The notes under the pieces were generated by a model. It ran no database searches. It was not told where the DNA came from and saw nothing but the letters and a program-made list of their open reading frames with translations. Below are positions 55,788 to 64,000 of a stretch of DNA of 64,000 nucleotides, piece by piece. Numbering within the stretch: position 1 is the stretch's first letter; every line of letters starts with the position of its first letter. Origin of the DNA: Sphingomonas alpina (GTDB lineage Bacteria > Pseudomonadota > Alphaproteobacteria > Sphingomonadales > Sphingomonadaceae); assembly GCF_014490665.1 (NCBI RefSeq), contig NZ_CP061038.1, positions 1,054,001 to 1,118,000 on the forward strand. The letters run 5' to 3'. The position numbers were made by a program, and so were the translations under genes.

Positions 55788-56768
55788 TTAAGGAGCTGCA
55801 GTGTCGCCGACCGCCAGCACAACGATATTCGTGCCGGTCCCACTGCTGCGGAGTGAGTCGCGCGTGACCAGCAACGTGGTGCCTGGGCTCAGGATGCCGT
55901 CGAGCAGAACGCGAAAAGTCTCGGGAAGGTGCGCCCGGGCCCGCTCGATCGGGGTAAGTTCCGGCGCAATCGGCTTTGGGTTGCCGGGCAGCGGCAGCCT
56001 CAGCCAGTGGATGCCGGCTGGATCGATGCTTTTCAGCGTGAAGGCCTCGGTCCTCTCAACCGGACCATCGATGGTGATCGCCGCGGATCCGATCTCTATG
56101 CCATTTCGCAGTACAACGACGCGACGGTCTCGCCCGCTGACGACGATCGATATCGGACCGGCGGGAGACCTGTCCGGCCGCCAGATATAATCTTCGGGCG
56201 GTTGATGCATGTCATCCGGCCCAGCGGCGATGATCCCCGGTGTGGGCGATATCTCCGGTGCCTCAGCGTCATCGGTGATGATGACGGTGAGACCCAGGCG
56301 GGTGACGCCGAACAACAATTTGGCGAACGCCAAGGGCAGCCGCACACAGCCGTGAGAATCGGGATAACCGGGCAAATGGCCGGCGTGCAATGCGATCCCG
56401 CCCCAGGTCAGCCGCTGCATGAACGGCATCGGTGCATCCTTGTAGAGATTGGATGTGTGGTCCGCGTCTTTCTGCAGGATCGTAAATATGCCGGTCGGGG
56501 TTTGATAACCAGGCCGACCGCTCGATATCGTCGAAACGCCGATCGGGAGGCCATTGCGATAAAGATAGGCGCGCTGCGTCTTGAGACCGACGATCATCGT
56601 CACTGGCCCGGCCGGCGCGATGTCCGGTGCCCACAGGAACTCGCCGGGCTTGAGCGCCTCGACTGCGCCATCGGTCGATGCTGGCGGCGTTTGCGCGGTC
56701 GCGGCTGTATTCATTCCCATCAGCGCAACCATGGCCGCGCACCGCAACAACACATGTTTTCCGATCAC
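55788..56768 (-). CDS. L,D-transpeptidase (YkuD) with degenerate second copy
   Basis: 326 residues. Signal peptide to about 25 (TAATAQ). The YkuD domain (about 42-170) keeps the catalytic HAGHLPGYPDSHGCVRLP (Cys about 140), which forms 3-3 peptidoglycan cross-links or attaches proteins. Residues about 193-250 repeat the start of this domain (WRPDRSPAGPISIVVSG against WAPDIAPAGPVTMIVGL; LRNGIEIGSA against YRNGLPIGVS) but lack the His-Gly-Cys motif. It lies 3 bases after the GNAT gene, so one operon, and under the same FixJ-like promoter region. Confidence 0.88.
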   Translation of the reverse strand: MIGKHVLLRCAAMVALMGMNTAATAQTPPASTDGAVEALKPGEFLWAPDIAPAGPVTMIVGLKTQRAYLYRNGLPIGVSTISSGRPGYQTPTGIFTILQKDADHTSNLYKDAPMPFMQRLTWGGIALHAGHLPGYPDSHGCVRLPLAFAKLLFGVTRLGLTVIITDDAEAPEISPTPGIIAAGPDDMHQPPEDYIWRPDRSPAGPISIVVSGRDRRVVVLRNGIEIGSAAITIDGPVERTEAFTLKSIDPAGIHWLRLPLPGNPKPIAPELTPIERARAHLPETFRVLLDGILSPGTTLLVTRDSLRSSGTGTNIVVLAVGDTAAP

Positions 56769-56771
56769 CGA

Positions 56772-57296
56772 TCAGCGCCGGTCGAGCTGGCGGCTGACGA
56801 GCATCAGGGTCGGGTCGCCCGGGTAAGGCGCGACGGTGAAGCCCATGTCGCGTTCCAGTTCGATCGCCTGGTGATTGTCGCGGCTTTCGATCGCTTCGAG
56901 TGTGTGCACGCCCTTCGACTCCGCATAGCGGGCGATATAGGCGAGCAATTCCCAGCTGATCCCCAGACGCTTGTGATCCTCGCGGATCGCGATCGCGACC
57001 TCGCCATGCTCGAACGCCGCATCACATGCGAGCATGCCGGTCGCGATCATCATCGATCCATCGGCAGTGAAGGCGAGAAAGTTTTCCGCATGATCATGGT
57101 CGAGGTGCGTGAGGGCGGTGATCTGGCTCGTGCCGACTTCGTTCAGGCCAGTCAGGAAACGGAAGCGCAGATCGGCGCGAGTGACATGCGAGAAGAAATC
57201 CTTCAGCGTTCCATCATCTTCATACAAAGCAGGCCGGACGTGGAAGCGGAAGCCGGTTCGCGTGGTGAGCATATCACCTGTCTTGGTCTGATTCAC
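56772..57296 (-). CDS. GNAT family acetyltransferase, probably oxygen-regulated
   Basis: 174 residues from GTG 57296, chosen for the GAGGATAT sequence just upstream; ATG 57272 is a later alternative. The GNAT fold shows FHVRPALYEDDGTLKDFF, RFRFLTGL and the acetyl-CoA loop in VAIAIREDHKRLGISWELLAY (about 112-132), then GVHTLEAIESRDNHQAIELERDMGF. It resembles the acetyltransferase half of Pat-type protein acetyltransferases (PALYEDD..L..FF..VT..DL..RF). Upstream lie two FixJ-like motifs shared with the divergent small gene. Confidence 0.85.
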   Translation of the reverse strand: MNQTKTGDMLTTRTGFRFHVRPALYEDDGTLKDFFSHVTRADLRFRFLTGLNEVGTSQITALTHLDHDHAENFLAFTADGSMMIATGMLACDAAFEHGEVAIAIREDHKRLGISWELLAYIARYAESKGVHTLEAIESRDNHQAIELERDMGFTVAPYPGDPTLMLVSRQLDRR

Positions 57297-57364
57297 GCTG
57301 GATATCCTCGATCGGAATGGCTTTCCCGAGAAGGATGTAGCCAATGCAGCCGGGTCCGATCAGC

Positions 57365-57380
57365 GTCGGAAACCACGTAG
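57365..57380 (+). promoter_or_regulatory. FixJ-like site A
   Basis: GTCGGAAACCACGTAG lies in the divergent region between the GNAT and small-protein genes. It matches the site before xfp (GTCGGAAACTACGCAG) at 14 of 16 positions. The reverse complement CTACGTGGTTTCCGAC resembles the Sinorhizobium FixJ recognition sequence GTAMGTAGTTTCC. Confidence 0.6.
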
Positions 57381-57409: not shown

Positions 57410-57425
57410 CTAAGTAGATTCCGAC
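57410..57425 (-). promoter_or_regulatory. FixJ-like site B (opposite orientation)
   Basis: On the minus strand GTCGGAATCTACTTAG; on the plus strand CTAAGTAGATTCCGAC, matching the FixJ consensus core TAAGTAG.TTCC. It points toward the small-protein gene, as site A points toward the GNAT operon. Confidence 0.62.
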
Positions 57426-57487: not shown

Positions 57488-57670
57488 ATGCCGAAGCGCC
57501 ACAATGAAATTACCTATATCGAAACCCGTCTTGCCAAGACGCTGCGCCAGGCCGAACATTCTTCGGGCGAATGCGACCGGGCATCGCATGAGGGCTTGGC
57601 CGATCTCTATCGTTCCCAATTGGCCGAGCTGCGCAAAAACCTGACGATGCCGAACCGGGCGCTCATCTAG
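57488..57670 (+). CDS. Small conserved hypothetical protein
   Basis: 60 residues from ATG 57488 with GAGGAGGTCG upstream, a strong ribosome site. Soluble, charged and helical (ITYIETRLAKTLRQAEHSSGECDRASHEGLADLYRSQLAELRK). No known motif. Its promoter region carries two FixJ-like sites. The stop shares CTAG with the fixJ stop on the other strand (convergent). Possibly a small effector of the oxygen response; function unknown. Confidence 0.72.
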   Translation: MPKRHNEITYIETRLAKTLRQAEHSSGECDRASHEGLADLYRSQLAELRKNLTMPNRALI

Positions 57671-58296
57671 CCGTCGGCGGGTGGGCCGCCGAAACCGGCG
57701 ACGAACGCGATCCGCAACACGTCAGAAATACTGCGGACACCGAGCTTGTGCGTCAGGTTCGATCGATGGACTTCCACGGTACGGGTGGCGATGCCGAGCT
57801 TATAGGCGGTGATCTTGTTGGCCTGTCCGCGCACCATGCCGTCAAGTACTTCGCGCTCGCGCGGCGTCAGCACAGCGAGGCGCAACGTCGCCGCGGCAAC
57901 GCTCATCTGCCCGGTCTGTGCGGCGCCGAGCCGCTCGAAGGCTTCCTCGACGGCGCGCAGCAGAACGACCTTTTCGAACGGTTTTTCGAGAAAATCGATC
58001 GCACCGGCCTTGATCGCGCGCACCGACAAGGCGATGTCGCCATGGCCGGTCAGCATCACGATCGGCAGGGCGATCCCACGCTCGCCGAGCAATCTCTGTA
58101 CTTCCAGCCCGTCGAGTTCGGGCATGCGGATGTCGAGCAGCACACAGCCTGGCTCCACCTCGGCGGCAACCGCGAGGAATGCGACGCCGGAGGCATAGGT
58201 TTCGACCCGGAACCCGCTCATGCGCAGCAGGAAACTGGCCGAGCGGCGGATCGCGTCTTCGTCATCGATCAGATGGATAAGCCGCTCATCCGCCAT
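57667..58296 (-). CDS. fixJ: Oxygen-response regulator FixJ
   Basis: 209 residues from ATG 58296. Receiver domain (about 1-120) with acidic pocket IDDED (about 10-13), phospho-Asp in LLDIRMPELDG (about 52), Thr in MLTGHGD and Lys in EKPF; then a LuxR-type HTH (about 140-200; LTPREREVLDGMVRGQANKITAYKLGIATRTVEVHRSNL). The long linker and NK.IAY.L.I..RTVEVHR pattern are those of FixJ. The start overlaps the fixL end by 11 bases. It should be phosphorylated by FixL under low oxygen. Confidence 0.93.
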   Translation of the reverse strand: MADERLIHLIDDEDAIRRSASFLLRMSGFRVETYASGVAFLAVAAEVEPGCVLLDIRMPELDGLEVQRLLGERGIALPIVMLTGHGDIALSVRAIKAGAIDFLEKPFEKVVLLRAVEEAFERLGAAQTGQMSVAAATLRLAVLTPREREVLDGMVRGQANKITAYKLGIATRTVEVHRSNLTHKLGVRSISDVLRIAFVAGFGGPPADG

Positions 58297-59812
58297 CGAT
58301 GTCGTCCAAATCCGCGCGCAAGAGCGTGAAGTGGAATTCGGTACCGTCCGGCAGCGCGGTCGCCCAGATCGCGCCGCCATGTGCCTCGACGATTGTGCGG
58401 CAGATCGACAGGCCCAACCCCATTCCCTCCGGCTTGCTCGAGGCAAATGCCTGGAACAGCCGGTCGGCGACGCCGGGTGCGATACCGCCGCCGGTGTCGG
58501 TGATGGTGACCTGCATATGATCGTCGACAGGGCATGTCGCGATCGTCAGGATGCGGCGTGGGGTGTCCGCCATCGCCTGGATCGCATTGCGGATAAGGTT
58601 GACCAGCACTTGCTGGATCTGAACGCGGTCAGCCCGCACCATCGCGTCCGTACTGGAATAGTCCGTCACCACCCGGACTCCGGCCGCACGCGCGCCGATC
58701 AACGCGAGGTGCGCGGCTTCTTCGACCATCAGGTTCAGCGGCTCAGGTCGCTGGCTGACCGCGCCATGAGCGACGAAATCGCGCAACCGGCGGATGATAT
58801 GGCCGGCGCGGATCGACTGCGCCGTTGCATCCTCCATCGCCTCACGTGCCAGCGCCAATGTTTCGGGTGTCGGATCATCGAGCAGGCCGCGCGCGCCTTC
58901 GAGATAGTTGGTGACGGCGGTCAATGGCTGGTTGAGCTCATGCGCCAGCGTGGAGGCCATGGTGCCCATTGCGCTCAGCCGTGAGACGTGGATCAGTTCG
59001 GATTGCAGGTCCTGCAAACGCAGTTCGGTACGCCGCCGTTCGGTGAGGTCGCGGATGAAGCCGGTGAAGATGCGCCGGTCGCCGACCAATGCCTCCCCGA
59101 CCGCGAGTTCGAGCGGGAATGTCTCGCCGTTGCGGCGCAGGCCGGTGACCAGCCGCACCCGCCCAATCACCTTGCGTTCACCACCGCCCATATAGTCGGC
59201 GAGATAGCCGTCATGCCGGCCACGATCCGGTTCGGGCATCAGCACCGAGACGTTGCGGCCGATCACATCCGCTTCGACATGGCCGAACAAGCGCTCCGCC
59301 GCCGCGCTGAACGAGGATATGGTACCGGCTTCGTCGATGATGATCATCGCGTCGGGCACGGTTTCCAGAATGGAGCGCAGATGCTCTTCACGCCGTGCCA
59401 GCGCGGTTTCCGCCGCTTTCTGTTCGGTAAGGTCGCGCACGACCTTGCCGAAGCCGCGCAACGCGCCGGTCTCGTCATGCAGTGCCGTCATCGTGACGCA
59501 GGCGAAGAATTCCGAGCCGTCGCGGCGGACGCGCCAGCTTTCCTCCTCCAGCCTGCCCTCGGCAGCGGCGCGCACCAGATCGGCGGCGGGTTTGTCCGCC
59601 GCGATATCGCGCGGCTGATAGAAAACGGAGAAATGCCGGCCGACGATCTCAGCCTGGGTCCACCCCTTGATACGCTCCGCGCCGCGGTTCCAGATCGTCA
59701 CATACCCTTGGGGATCGAGCATGTAGATCGCGTAGTTGGTCGCCCCGTCGATCAACAGGCCGAGCTCCTCCGCCAGGGTGCCGGGTTTCAGGGGGATCGC
59801 GCAAATCCTCAT
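58286..59812 (-). CDS. fixL: Haem-PAS oxygen sensor histidine kinase FixL
   Basis: 508 residues from ATG 59812. Order: PAS1 (about 15-130; IYMLDPQGYVTIWNRGAERIKGW), haem PAS2 (about 145-260), HisKA (about 275-340) and HATPase (about 390-505). With this start the haem-ligand His in PDRGRHDGY is residue 200, the oxygen-sensing Arg in VRLVTG is 220 and the phospho-His in LAHELNQPL is 291, the numbers known for Bradyrhizobium FixL. So this is a true haem oxygen sensor and not only a FixL-like PAS kinase. No membrane helices: cytosolic. Downstream of ackA by 62 bases on the same strand. Confidence 0.94.
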   Translation of the reverse strand: MRICAIPLKPGTLAEELGLLIDGATNYAIYMLDPQGYVTIWNRGAERIKGWTQAEIVGRHFSVFYQPRDIAADKPAADLVRAAAEGRLEEESWRVRRDGSEFFACVTMTALHDETGALRGFGKVVRDLTEQKAAETALARREEHLRSILETVPDAMIIIDEAGTISSFSAAAERLFGHVEADVIGRNVSVLMPEPDRGRHDGYLADYMGGGERKVIGRVRLVTGLRRNGETFPLELAVGEALVGDRRIFTGFIRDLTERRRTELRLQDLQSELIHVSRLSAMGTMASTLAHELNQPLTAVTNYLEGARGLLDDPTPETLALAREAMEDATAQSIRAGHIIRRLRDFVAHGAVSQRPEPLNLMVEEAAHLALIGARAAGVRVVTDYSSTDAMVRADRVQIQQVLVNLIRNAIQAMADTPRRILTIATCPVDDHMQVTITDTGGGIAPGVADRLFQAFASSKPEGMGLGLSICRTIVEAHGGAIWATALPDGTEFHFTLLRADLDDIDGG

Positions 59813-59874
59813 ATCGGGCGATGCAGCACAACGCCGGGCCGATCGCGTACCACCTCCACGCCGGGAAATGCCTA

Positions 59875-60930
59875 TCAAATCGGCGACTTGCCCGACGCTG
59901 CAACGAGCACAGCACGAGCGTCGGACGCGATTCTATGCCCCTCTTGCGACGGCATCACGCGGACGGCGATCGTCGCGGGACAGGAATCGCTTGCGGCTGG
60001 CACGTTGGCCCAGGTCAGGTCGCGGCAGATATCGGCCCGGGCTTCCGCATCATTTTCGCCGATTCCGCCGGTGAAGACGATCATATCCGCCCCACCAAGG
60101 GCCGCCATCATTGCCGCGATCTGTTTTGCTACCGAGCGGCAGAAGATCGCGATGGCGAGCCTGGCTTCCTCACTCGCTGCCGCGCGCAATTCGCGGATGT
60201 CGCCGGATATGCCCGATATGCCGCGCATTCCCGATTGACGATCGATCAGTGTCTCCAGCGCCGCCGCATCCAGCCCGTGCCGGCGCATCAGGTATAGCAA
60301 CACGCCCGGATCGAGATCTCCGGTGCGCGTCGCCATTACGATCCCGCCCGACGGGGTAAGGCCCATGCTGGTGTCGACCGATTGGCCGTTCCGCACCGCC
60401 GTGACGCTGGCGCCGCTACCGAGATGCGCGATGATCAGCCGCGGCGGCCGCTCCGCACCGAGCTGATCGAGGATCGACTGGCAGGACAGGCCATGAAAAC
60501 CGTATCGACGGATGCCCGCCGCGCGAAGCGTGCCGGGCAGCGGCAGAGTCGCGGCGATATCAGGAAGGCCGGCATGAAAACCGGTGTCGAAGCATGCGAT
60601 ATGCGGACGGTCCGGCCAACGCGCCTGCGCGGCCGCGATCAATGCCAGCGATGCGGGGCCGTGCAGGGGCGCGAAAGCGGTGGCCCGTTCAAGCCGGGCG
60701 ATGATCCCGGTGTCGATCAGGACAGGGGCGAACAGATCCGGCCCGCCATGCACGATGCGATGGCCGATCGCGTCTGGCCGATTGCCACCCAGCGCATCGG
60801 TGATCGTATCGAGTGTCGTGTCGGCGGGGTCGGCGGTGCCAGCCGCGATTTGCGCCGTCGTGCCCGATCCGGCCTCGTACAATCCGAACTTCAGCGACGA
60901 CGATCCCTCGTTCAGCGTCAGGATCTTCAT
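59875..60930 (-). CDS. ackA: Acetate kinase
   Basis: 351 residues from ATG 60930, overlapping the xfp stop (ATGA). Makes ATP and acetate from acetyl phosphate. Motifs: NEGSSSLKF (about 7-15), GHRIVHGG (about 56-63), [40 protein letters not shown] (about 195-215) and FTGGIGEND. It is somewhat shorter than E. coli AckA (400 aa) owing to trimmed loops. Directly after phosphoketolase it recovers ATP from the acetyl phosphate that enzyme makes. Confidence 0.95.
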
Positions 60931-63326
60931 CGGATCCAGCGCCAGTCGTTGATCTCCGGCAGGTCGTCGCCATGCTCGGCGATGTACAGTTTGTGGCGTT
61001 CGATCGCCGTCCAATATTGCGCGCGCGCATTGGGGATCAGATGGCGCAGCCGCGGCACGCGTTCGACCGCGTCGAGCGCCAGCCGATAACGATCGAGATC
61101 GTTGAGCACGACCATGTCGAACGGCGTGGTGGTGGTGCCTTCCTCCTTGAACCCGCGAACATGGATATTGGCGTGGTTGGGCCGTTTATAGGTCAGCTTG
61201 TGGACCAGTGACGGATAGCCGTGAAACGCGAAGATCACCGGGCGGTCGACCGTGAACAGCGCCTCGAACGCGCGATCGTCGAGGCCGTGCGGATGTTCGG
61301 ACTGTGGTTGCAGCACCATCAGGTCGACCACGTTCACGACGCGGATGCGGATATTCGGAATGTTTTCGCGCAGCAGCATCACCGCCGCCATCGTTTCCAG
61401 CGTCGGCACATCGCCGGCGCAGGCCATCACCACATCGGGCTCGCCGGCATCGCTCGCGAAATTCCACACACCGGCGCCCGCAGTACAATGGCGCACCGCG
61501 TCGTCGATGCCGAGCCACTGCCATTCGGGTTGCTTGCCCGCGACGATGACGTTCACATAATTGCGGCTGCGCAGGCAATGGTCCGCCACCGACAACAGGC
61601 AATTGGCGTCGGGCGGTAAGTAGATCCGCGCCACGCCCGCCGTCTTGTTGGCGACATGATCGATGAAGCCGGGATCCTGATGCGACAGCCCGTTATGATC
61701 CTGCCGCCAGACATGCGAGGTGAGCAGATAGTTGAGCGATGCGATCGGCCGCCGCCACGGGATTCCGTCCGAGACCTTCAACCATTTGGCATGTTGGTTG
61801 AGCATCGAATCGACGATGTGGACGAACGCCTCATAGCATGAGAACAACCCGTGCCGCCCGGTGAGGAGATACCCCTCCAGCCAACCCTGGCAGAGATGCT
61901 CGCTCAGCACCTCCATGACGCGGCCGTTGCGGTCGAGATGCTCGTCCACCGCCGCGGTTTCCGCCATCCACGCCTTGCCGGTGACATCATATACCGCCTG
62001 CAGACGGTTCGACGCGGTCTCGTCGGGTCCGAACAGCCGGAAATTCGCGGCATCGAGGTTGAGCGCCATGGTCTCGCGGAGAAAATCGCCCAGCACCGCG
62101 GTCGCCGCCGCCTTCACACCGCCCGCCTCCGGTACGGTCACCGCGTGATCGCGAAAGTCGGGCAGGGCCAGCGGCCGGAGCAGCGCACCGCCATTGGCGT
62201 GCGGGTTCGAGCCCATTCGCCGATGCCCGGTCGGCGCGAGCGAAGCATACTCCTCACGGAACTTGCCGCTGGGGTCGAACAGCTCATCCGCACGATAGCT
62301 GAGCAGCCATTGCTCGAGCTGACGAAGATGTTCGGGATCGGTGAAATCGGCGATCGGCACCTGATGCGCGCGCCATGTGCCCTGGACGGGTTTGCCGTCG
62401 ACGACCTTCGGCCCGGTCCAGCCCTTGGGCGTTTCCAGCACGATCATCGGCCAGCGTGGGCGTCCATTGTCCGGCAGGCCATTGCGCGCAGTAGCCTGAA
62501 TCGCGCGGATCCGCTCCAGCACCGTATCGAGCGTCGCCGCGAGCGACTGATGCACGATATCGGGATCGTCGCCCGTGACGAAGAAGGGTTCGTGCCCATA
62601 ACCATGCATCAATTCAGTCAGCTCCTCGCGCCCGATGCGCGCCAGCACGGTCGGATTGGCGATCTTGAAGCCGTTGAGATGCAGGATCGGCAGGACTGCG
62701 CCGTCGCGCGGGGGGTTGAGGAACTTGTTGCTGTGCCAGCTCGCTGCGAGCGCACCCGTCTCGGCCTCGCCATCGCCGATGACGCAGGCGACGATCAGGT
62801 CGGGATTGTCGAACGCCGCGCCATAGGCATGGGCGAGCGAATAACCCAGTTCGCCACCTTCATGGATCGACCCGGGTGTTTCCGGAGCGACGTGGCTGGG
62901 GATGCCGCCCGGCCAGGAGAATTGCCGGAATAGCCGGTCCATGCCGCCCCGGCTGCGCTCGATCGCGGGATAGGTTTCGGTGTACGACCCCTCGAGATAG
63001 GTGTTGGCAACGATCCCCGGCCCGCCATGTCCCGGGCCGATGACCGCGATCATGTCGAGATCATGCTCGACGATAAGCCGGTTGAGATGGACATAGATCA
63101 GGTTGAGCCCCGGCGTCGTGCCCCAATGGCCGAGCAGCCGCGTTTTCACGTCGCCGATCTCCAGTGGCCGATCGAGCAGCGGGTTGGCGCGGAGGTAAAT
63201 CTGCCCGACCGAAAGATAGTTCGCTGCGCGCCAATACCCGTGCATGCGCCGCAGCATGTCGGGCGACAGCGGGCCGGCGGCACCTTTTCCAGACCGCTCG
63301 ATCGCGGCTATCATCATGTCGGTCAT
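60927..63326 (-). CDS. xfp: Xylulose-5-phosphate/fructose-6-phosphate phosphoketolase
   Basis: 799 residues from ATG 63326. A TPP enzyme that splits xylulose-5-P or fructose-6-P with phosphate into acetyl phosphate plus glyceraldehyde-3-P or erythrose-4-P. Motifs: [10 protein letters not shown] (about 67), GPGHGGPG (about 96), TPP/Mg site [13 protein letters not shown] (about 185), [11 protein letters not shown], and [11 protein letters not shown] (about 435). Full length for the family. With ackA it forms a bypass giving ATP without the TCA cycle. The promoter region carries two FixJ-like sites 21 bases apart. Confidence 0.96.
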
Positions 63327-63391
63327 ATCGGCTTCCCGTCGGGTCGTGGCGTGAAGCCCGGCCATAGGAGGGCCGCGCGCACGCGGTCAGC

Positions 63392-63407
63392 GTCGGAAAC
63401 TACGCAG
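63392..63407 (+). promoter_or_regulatory. FixJ-like site C (xfp/alternative oxidase region)
   Basis: GTCGGAAACTACGCAG; on the minus strand it reads CTGCGTAGTTTCCGAC, close to the Sinorhizobium FixJ site GTAAGTAGTTTCC. It lies 66 bases upstream of xfp and 94 upstream of the oxidase gene. Confidence 0.65.
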
Positions 63408-63412
63408 AAGAC

Positions 63413-63428
63413 CGCGCAATCTACGTAC
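63413..63428 (+). promoter_or_regulatory. FixJ-like site D (xfp/alternative oxidase region)
   Basis: CGCGCAATCTACGTAC; on the minus strand it begins GTACGTAG, an exact GTAMGTAG match. It is spaced 21 bases (two helical turns) from site C in the same orientation, as expected for two FixJ dimers on one face of the DNA. Confidence 0.62.
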
Positions 63429-63500
63429 TTTCCGTTGCTGCCCGCACCACCGCTCCCGCCCTAGGGATGTCCTCAATCGAACAGTGGAAAGACAGCTCAC

Positions 63501-64000
63501 ATGGTCAACGCCGTCCTAAAGCCCGATGCGCTCGCGCTCGCTATCGAACGCCAGGCGCAGCCCATCGTACATCACGAACCGAAAGGCTTTTCCGATCGCT
63601 TCGCGCTCGGCTTCACCAAGCTCCTCCGGTTCAGCGCCGACACGTTTTTCGCCAAGCGCTATGGCCACCGCGCGATCGTATTGGAGACCGTCGCGGCGGT
63701 GCCCGGGATGGTCGGCGCGATGTTCACCCACCTCAAATGCCTGCGCCGGATGCGCGACGATCAAGGCTGGATCCGCACCTTGATGGAAGAAGCAGAGAAT
63801 GAGCGCATGCATTTGATGACGTTCATCGAGATCGCCAAGCCGACCTGGTTCGAGCGCACGGTGATCCTGCTGGTGCAAGGCGTGTTTCTGATCGGCTTTT
63901 CGGTCCTTTATCTGCTCTCTGCGCGGACCGCGCACCGCGTCGTCGGCTATTTCGAGGAAGAGGCGGTGACCAGCTACACGTTGTACCTGAAGGAAATCGA
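63501..64000 (+). CDS. aox: Alternative oxidase (cyanide-resistant quinol oxidase), 5' part
   Basis: From ATG 63501 the frame is open to the window end (166 codons and two bases). Di-iron ligands are visible: Glu in [19 protein letters not shown] (about 55), Glu and His in [12 protein letters not shown] (about 94-97), and Glu in [11 protein letters not shown] (about 145-155). Two hydrophobic segments (about 50-70 and 115-140) place it in the membrane surface. It oxidises ubiquinol with O2 to water without pumping protons. AOX is known in Novosphingobium. It is divergent from xfp across 174 bases with FixJ-like sites between. Confidence 0.93.

Follow-up and report, generated by a model that had tools for sequence, protein, structure and literature searches.

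A Candidate Low-Oxygen Island in Sphingomonas alpina with FixJ-Like Boxes between a Phosphoketolase Operon and an Alternative Oxidase Gene

Introduction

Could one oxygen signal switch both how carbon yields ATP and how quinol is oxidised? The question is raised by a locus at the end of the 64,000-nucleotide stretch of Sphingomonas alpina DNA analysed here (the window: bases 1054001-1118000 of the single 5,197,460-bp contig), where genes for a FixL-type haem sensor kinase and a FixJ-type response regulator lie in a row with genes for acetate kinase (ackA) and phosphoketolase (xfp), and an alternative oxidase (AOX) gene diverges from xfp. A first-pass annotation of the sequence had proposed such a switch. 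The sequence comparisons reported below suggest that this is probably a FixLJ-controlled low-oxygen island in which phosphorylated FixJ (FixJ~P) acts, with no intermediary, on the genes to either side of the xfp/AOX intergenic region.

Sphingomonads are regarded as aerobes that only exceptionally grow without oxygen (PMC7713065), and a comparative study of oxygen regulators found FixLJ in 4 of 4 Caulobacterales and 15 of 20 Rhizobiales (PMC4999443). In Bradyrhizobium diazoefficiens, xfp-ackA (bll2518-bll2517) is a target of FixK2, as are genes for a universal stress protein and an oleate hydratase (PMC9104804), and the phosphoketolase gene bll2518 also appears in a microoxia expression table (PMC6515984). 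Of six conditions tabulated for Rhodopseudomonas palustris, one shows a strong drop of the phosphoketolase Rpal_1869 when fixK is mutated (PMC3050613).

Gene Order and Protein Identities

The four genes of the operon are adjacent on the minus strand and, as their open reading frames read, are transcribed in the order xfp (60927..63365, alternative ATG at 63326), ackA (59875..60930), fixL (58286..59878), and fixJ (57667..58296). The first-pass annotation had described this row, with overlaps in two places, and two are certain: an ATGA overlap joins xfp to ackA, and fixL and fixJ overlap by 11 nt. A third is possible between ackA and fixL, where the TTG start of fixL gives a TTGA overlap and the alternative ATG at 59812 a 62-bp gap. 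The plus-strand AOX gene begins at 63501, divergent from xfp as had been stated, and runs past the end of the window (63501..64000); the complete gene for 240 aa lies in our stretch L002 (502-1224). Beyond the window, in the next genome stretch and 42 bp behind AOX, is a gene for a Flavodoxin_2/FMN_red protein (NQO), whose best NCBIfam match, NAD(P)H oxidoreductase, is below the cut-off and is the basis of our label "quinone-reductase-like."

FixL has the domain order PAS-PAS-HisKA-HATPase, with PF00512 and PF02518 above their Pfam cut-offs. The second PAS aligns along its full extent with the Bradyrhizobium haem domain (PDB 1dp6, 123 aa), and His222, Arg242, and His313 are the counterparts of Bradyrhizobium His200, Arg220, and His291, each numbered 22 lower by the first-pass annotation, so that its claim of a kept haem His, Arg, and phospho-His is borne out; structure 1y28 has Ala at the Arg position. 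All three residues are kept in 39 of 40 FixL proteins, the one from S. alpina included and those of L260 and L270 left out. The best NCBIfam model was FixL for the kinase (497 bits, equivalog cut-off 850, a rhizobial equivalog) and FixJ for the regulator (226 bits, cut-off 255); since neither cut-off was reached, we call the proteins FixL-type and FixJ-type. FixJ joins a receiver domain (PF00072) to a LuxR-type DNA-binding domain (PF00196), and its closest solved chain is the FixJ structure 5xso. Xfp is full length, with its three domains (PF09364, PF03894, and PF09363) and 1412 bits against a cut-off of 962 for the NCBIfam phosphoketolase model. The ackA-like gene product, an acetate/propionate kinase, reached PF00871 and scored 279.3 bits with TIGR00016, below the cut-off of 293.4. 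AOX (PF01786) was aligned to the solved mitochondrial AOX chains 9kun and 3vv9; compared with 9kun its motifs are kept, including DEA-H, and these we take to be the diiron motifs.

FixJ-Like Boxes between xfp and AOX

The intergenic region between xfp and AOX is 135 bp long and holds two inverted FixJ-like boxes. Box 1, CGGAAACTACGCAG (63394..63407, plus strand), is on the xfp side and fits the extended motif with 0 mismatches; box 2, CGGAAAGTACGTAG (63421..63434, minus strand), is on the AOX side. The seed pattern CGGAAANTACGNAG has exactly two exact matches in the 5.2-Mb genome, and these are the two boxes. There are 15 one-mismatch seed sites in the genome, one of which (57367..57380, plus strand; genome position 1111367) precedes a GNAT acetyltransferase gene 6 kb from the xfp/AOX region and has an inverted partner with 2 mismatches at 57410-57423.

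When FixJ sites like GTAGTTTCCC or TAAGTAATTTCCCTTA were sought, the boxes qualified through the core of their reverse complement, GTAGTTTCCG, which matches GTAGTTTCCC at 9 of 10 positions; by sequence they are candidate FixJ sites. The consensus GTAGTTTCCC is one of two classes reported for FixJ from systematic evolution of ligands by exponential enrichment (SELEX; PMC4999443). Sigma-70 promoters numbered 4 against 2.2 in shuffles and terminators 3 against 4.0, none of them within the xfp/AOX region. The first-pass annotation had missed the boxes between xfp and AOX, the GNAT boxes, and the quinone-reductase-like gene.

Distribution of the Boxes

We scanned 151 genomes of the genus for exact CGGRAACTACGYAG, using the reversed pattern as control here and throughout and counting FixL at E ≤ 1e-130. 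The box was found at 32 sites in 17 genomes and the reversed pattern at 16 sites in 16. FixL was present in 16 of the 17 box genomes, compared with 60 of all 151 (Fisher p about 1e-6, an optimistic value because the genomes are related and the consensus loci partly overlap the scanned genomes), and in 1 of the 16 reversed-pattern genomes. Of the 32 box sites, 23 lay no further than 20 kb from FixL. A set of 149 genomes spread over the family had 7 box sites in 5 genomes, and 5 of these sites were again within 20 kb of FixL.

The neighbourhoods of FixL were collected as 22 named loci found through FixL alone (L020-L041, up to 10 kb on each side and often ending at a contig edge) and 20 further stretches picked because a box, Xfp, or AOX lies near FixL; any gene frequency counted with the latter is biased by that choice. 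In 41 island stretches (L259, L260, and L270 were left out as overlapping or repeating loci already counted, part of L259 being non-repeat) we counted 29 exact boxes and 0 reversed ones; allowing one mismatch gave 56 boxes and 4 reversed ones. Fifty of the 56 were near a gene start. The base preceding the box was T in 56/56 and the base four further upstream A in 52/56, both at positions outside the selection. The genes behind the 56 boxes encode a BON-domain protein (16), a universal stress protein (14), NQO (6), Xfp (5), AckA (5), AOX (4), an ATPase that we labelled Ca-type (3), and FixL (3), one box sometimes being counted for two genes. Inverted pairs at most 80 bp apart (up to 2 mismatches, spacing 22 to 69 bp) were present in 12 stretches, that of S. 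alpina included. In Sphingomonas sp. PAMC 26605 (L020), paired boxes between ackA and AOX are, by sequence, another version of the same divergent promoter, and on a Sphingomonas paeninsulae plasmid an exact box stands 54 bp upstream of a universal stress protein gene adjoining FixLJ.

Association of FixL with xfp and AOX

The counts support a clustering of FixLJ, xfp, and AOX beyond that expected by chance, and the association exceeds one strain. Of the 33 genus genomes counted as having Xfp, 21 have it at most 20 kb from FixL; 9 of 49 Xfp rows had been left out as weak or fragmentary matches, which leaves 33 of the 37 genomes with any match. AOX lies equally near FixL in 6 of 26 AOX genomes of the genus. 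In the family set, AOX was within 6 kb of FixL in 13 of 31 AOX genomes, where most of the FixL matches begin at the haem PAS, and Xfp was rare, with strong matches in 4 of 149 genomes, S. alpina included. We also surveyed 57 of the 59 AOX sites themselves (L098-L127 and L199-L225). A FixL-type kinase is divergently adjacent at 23 of these 57 loci and keeps the haem His and Arg in 23/23; in the sequences compared, the AOX-FixL pairing is wider than the operon of this genome. Among the 22 loci found through FixL alone, GNAT was present in 12, AOX in 8, AckA in 7, an NQO homologue in 5, and Xfp in 3, some of the matches being partial or distant. Gene order is fluid among FixL islands, and the exact compact arrangement (fixLJ-ackA-xfp with divergent AOX) was found in S. 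alpina only.

The closest relative of the locus is in genome G180, the sole one of 295 genus genomes with a FixL more than 90% identical (95%; the next has 71%). Its block has the box, xfp, ackA, fixL, fixJ, GNAT, and YkuD as in S. alpina, its promoter (L255 compared with window positions 63290-63560) aligns up to the AOX start position and then diverges, and two AOX genes are at other places in that genome. Because the conserved stretch reaches the AOX start position before diverging, the simplest reading of the alignment is that an AOX once served by this promoter was lost in G180. Whether the arrangement is unique to one strain therefore has a divided answer: the association is wider, but the exact compact form is in S. 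alpina only and the G180 operon is without AOX there. Near second FixL islands of G180 (L256) and of genome G178 (L272), Xfp matches are split into several pieces and look like broken copies.

The idea that the box serves as a FixJ site throughout the family was rejected: its exact match is missing in 144 of the 149 family genomes, and the 23 divergent FixL/AOX pairs show only 2- or 3-mismatch sites upstream of AOX (L101, L200, and L223). Six of these pairs (L100, L101, L104, L109, L110, and L116) share, as seen by eye, an intergenic block like CCTCCGGTAAAGCCCTTAGGGG..GTAGGG..ATCCAAATTT, which differs from the box described here and may be bound by another type of FixJ.

Proposed Mechanism and Alternatives

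We propose that when O2 leaves the FixL haem, FixL would phosphorylate FixJ, and FixJ~P would bind the paired boxes between xfp and AOX and fire both ways. Leftward, Xfp and AckA would be made, giving ATP from sugar phosphates via acetyl phosphate without respiration, and with them more FixL and FixJ, a positive feedback expected from the position of fixLJ inside the operon. Rightward, AOX and the quinone-reductase-like flavoprotein would be made, and the weaker site would serve the neighbouring GNAT gene. FixJ would act directly on its target genes, with no FixK relay. The earlier proposal that one O2 signal switches both carbon and quinol use gains from boxes that lie exactly between xfp and AOX and from the clustering of the genes, but redox overflow is just one reading of AOX, and nitric oxide (NO) is also indicated.

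Several observations weigh against this proposal. Within S. alpina the seed pattern is not enriched at up to one mismatch (17 sites, 18 for the reversed pattern), and in the family set the box was no commoner than its reverse (7 and 9 sites), so that placement alone is informative there. The consensus was refined partly on loci from genomes that were scanned afterwards (G239 = L030 and G090 = L036), which adds to the optimism of the p value noted above. When FixL proteins were clustered at 80% identity, 15 of the 28 lineages had no box (up to one mismatch) in their locus. Among AOX genes at least 82% identical to that of S. alpina, just 5 of 11 had a box within 300 bp upstream (up to 2 mismatches), and none of the 23 divergent FixL/AOX pairs had one before AOX at up to one mismatch. 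In G180 the AOX-side box is altered while the xfp-side box is unchanged, and no AOX is there. A FixK relay could also have been missed: a search of the S. alpina genome with PF13545 (HTH_Crp_2) gave 14 matches, 4 above the cut-off and 10 below it; only those above were inspected, and none of them could be recognised as a FixK or FnrN.

By eye, three of these 4 proteins are CRP/FNR-like without the FNR-type Glu/Ser/Arg helix, which reads FNR boxes (PMC7713065), and one is of another type; none of the 4 loci had a FixJ box at up to 3 mismatches. FixK/FNR boxes as controlling sites of the S. alpina island were rejected, there being just two one-mismatch sites, both within genes by position. Across the islands the FNR pattern may be enriched, with 118 strand matches against 28 for its reversed form, a poor composition control.

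It is possible, if somewhat unlikely, that AOX is instead an NO-insensitive oxidase of NO defence, induced by NO via NsrR or a similar regulator, and stands beside FixLJ as both are useful in micro-oxic niches. The aox gene of Sphingopyxis granuli is about 450-fold up anaerobically with nitrate and is also induced aerobically by an NO donor, and responds weakly without nitrate or nitrate reductase (PMC6472365). Globin genes lie behind a FixL-paired AOX on plasmid p3 of S. xenophagum C1, and the neighbours of a Polymorphobacter AOX with 80% identity include an Rrf2 regulator and the flavohaemoprotein hmpA. NsrR-like half sites were seen upstream of AOX in L120, L125, and L126, but the S. alpina AOX promoter (L103) has FixJ-like boxes and no such half site at up to 1 mismatch, and the frequent divergent pairing of AOX with a FixL-type kinase that keeps its haem residues (23/57 loci) also weighs against this reading. 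The NO and oxygen readings do not conflict: AOX may serve as an NO-tolerant oxidase under micro-oxic conditions, as a quinol outlet, or as both. That only the xfp-ackA-fixLJ operon is a FixJ target and AOX a chance neighbour sharing the intergenic region is unlikely. This would agree with the xfp-side box that G180 retains though AOX is absent and with the poorer fit of box 2 to the extended motif (3 mismatches); yet the conservation in G180 as far as the AOX start position looks like a lost AOX, boxes also precede other AOX genes (L201, L215, and L218), and the ackA and AOX genes of L020 share a box pair.

A reversed polarity, in which FixLJ would repress its targets in the presence of O2 or under some other condition, seems very unlikely. 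FixLJ of R. palustris does repress nif genes in response to oxygen (PMC13327599), but rhizobial FixJ is required for nitrogen fixation, with fixK as its conserved target (PMC4999443), and xfp-ackA transcripts of B. diazoefficiens are about tenfold lower without FixK2 (PMC9104804). Most improbable, in our judgement, is that the genes are mere cargo of mobile islands, travelling together on plasmids or genomic islands without one shared signal: FixL islands do occur on conjugative plasmids in Sphingobium and Sphingomonas and their gene order is fluid, but different island genes have the same promoter motif before them, and the reading frames of the operon overlap.

Acetyl phosphate can phosphorylate many response regulators. 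Were this so for FixJ here, which is a supposition, direct control by FixJ could be part of a self-amplifying switch, in which one operon encodes the sensor and regulator that control it as well as a source (Xfp) and a drain (AckA) of acetyl phosphate; sugar flux would load FixJ, AckA would act as the brake, and the result would be a bistable gate for "low O2 AND sugar phosphate available." We consider this quite unlikely. If true, the switch would bypass the FixK relay, and from a single divergent promoter the cell would be committed in one step to making ATP without respiration and to oxidising quinol without proton pumping.

Comparison with Known Systems

The island resembles the FixLJ-FixK2 cascade of B. 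diazoefficiens in its haem-type FixL and in a putative low-oxygen regulon; that of B. diazoefficiens includes xfp-ackA, a universal stress protein, and an oleate hydratase. Some sphingomonad islands hold an MCRA-family gene, which belongs to the oleate hydratase family. In Bradyrhizobium, FixJ acts on fixK and FixK boxes stand at the metabolic genes, whereas here FixJ-like boxes stand at the metabolic genes themselves, AOX is an added putative target, and fixLJ is inside the target operon.

In the lxa locus of Burkholderia cenocepacia, too, low-oxygen genes are clustered, among them those for universal stress proteins, a BON-domain protein, and a protein of flavin/nitro-reductase type (PMC6127331, PMC9104464). 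The locus is from another bacterial class and has been suggested to be under a CRP/FNR protein, which may in turn answer to a FixLJ encoded at another place; the terms "phosphoketolase" and "alternative oxidase" are absent from the main text of that report (PMC6127331). As far as the gene contents indicate, the likeness to lxa is in kind only. In the DosR regulon of Mycobacterium tuberculosis, a haem-sensing two-component system with a LuxR-type regulator acts directly on many stress and metabolic genes. The island would resemble it in having such a system and a directly acting LuxR-type regulator, and differs in gene content and in the sensor, which has GAF haem domains in the DosR system. 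By analogy, the island is similar in kind to both lxa and DosR, the latter with 10 universal stress proteins among 48 genes (PMC6127331). The AOX of Sphingopyxis granuli TFA is also a sphingomonad AOX strongly induced without oxygen; the authors link it to NO, and FixLJ is not mentioned in the excerpts available (PMC6472365).

The first-pass annotation knew of no such unit in sphingomonads. That the FixLJ cascade controls xfp-ackA has been published for B. diazoefficiens, where FixK2 is the link (PMC9104804), but the arrangement in sphingomonads was not found described. Titles and abstract openings among the literature matches listed, with few subscription journals, held none on FixLJ with xfp, ackA, and AOX in sphingomonads, nor did we find there the sphingomonad island, the box, fixLJ inside an xfp-ackA operon, or AOX as a FixJ target. 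Direct control by FixJ, fixLJ inside its own target operon, and AOX as a target, as proposed from the sequences, are thus apparently new. The locus would offer a candidate direct FixJ regulon with a 14-bp site in a Sphingomonas-like genome, its outputs overlapping those that rhizobia reach via FixK, and so a case of a regulatory cascade minus its usual middle step with similar outputs. A promoter joining ATP from sugar phosphates to AOX could help to show what bacterial AOX is for at low oxygen, and the G180 promoter without AOX is a natural test of the purpose of box 2.

Neighbouring Genes and Related Plasmid Loci

Two further genes on the minus strand are recurrent FixLJ neighbours: the GNAT acetyltransferase gene (56772..57344, PF00583, with an ATG at 57272) and a gene for a YkuD L,D-transpeptidase-like protein (55788..56768, PF03734), whose place in the gene order is the same in G180. 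On plasmid p3 of S. xenophagum (L291, 6745-12899), a conjugative plasmid, fixJ-fixL diverges from AOX, behind which are a group III truncated haemoglobin, a DUF1971 protein, a globin, and two universal stress proteins; this locus has no box, even with 2 mismatches allowed. An AOX is also present on a further plasmid record of the same species and source, NZ_CP022747.1. FixLJ has been reported on two plasmids of Sphingobium hydrophobicum C1 (PMC6783567), which is probably the same strain as S. xenophagum C1.

A second, shorter response-regulator gene follows fixJ in L020, L022, L023, L026, L037, L292, and L294, and none is present in the window. On the S. panacis plasmid L292 (2788-5411), a phosphate acetyltransferase fusion and acetate kinase replace Xfp and AckA near FixLJ and universal stress protein genes, a different route to acetyl phosphate in the same type of island.

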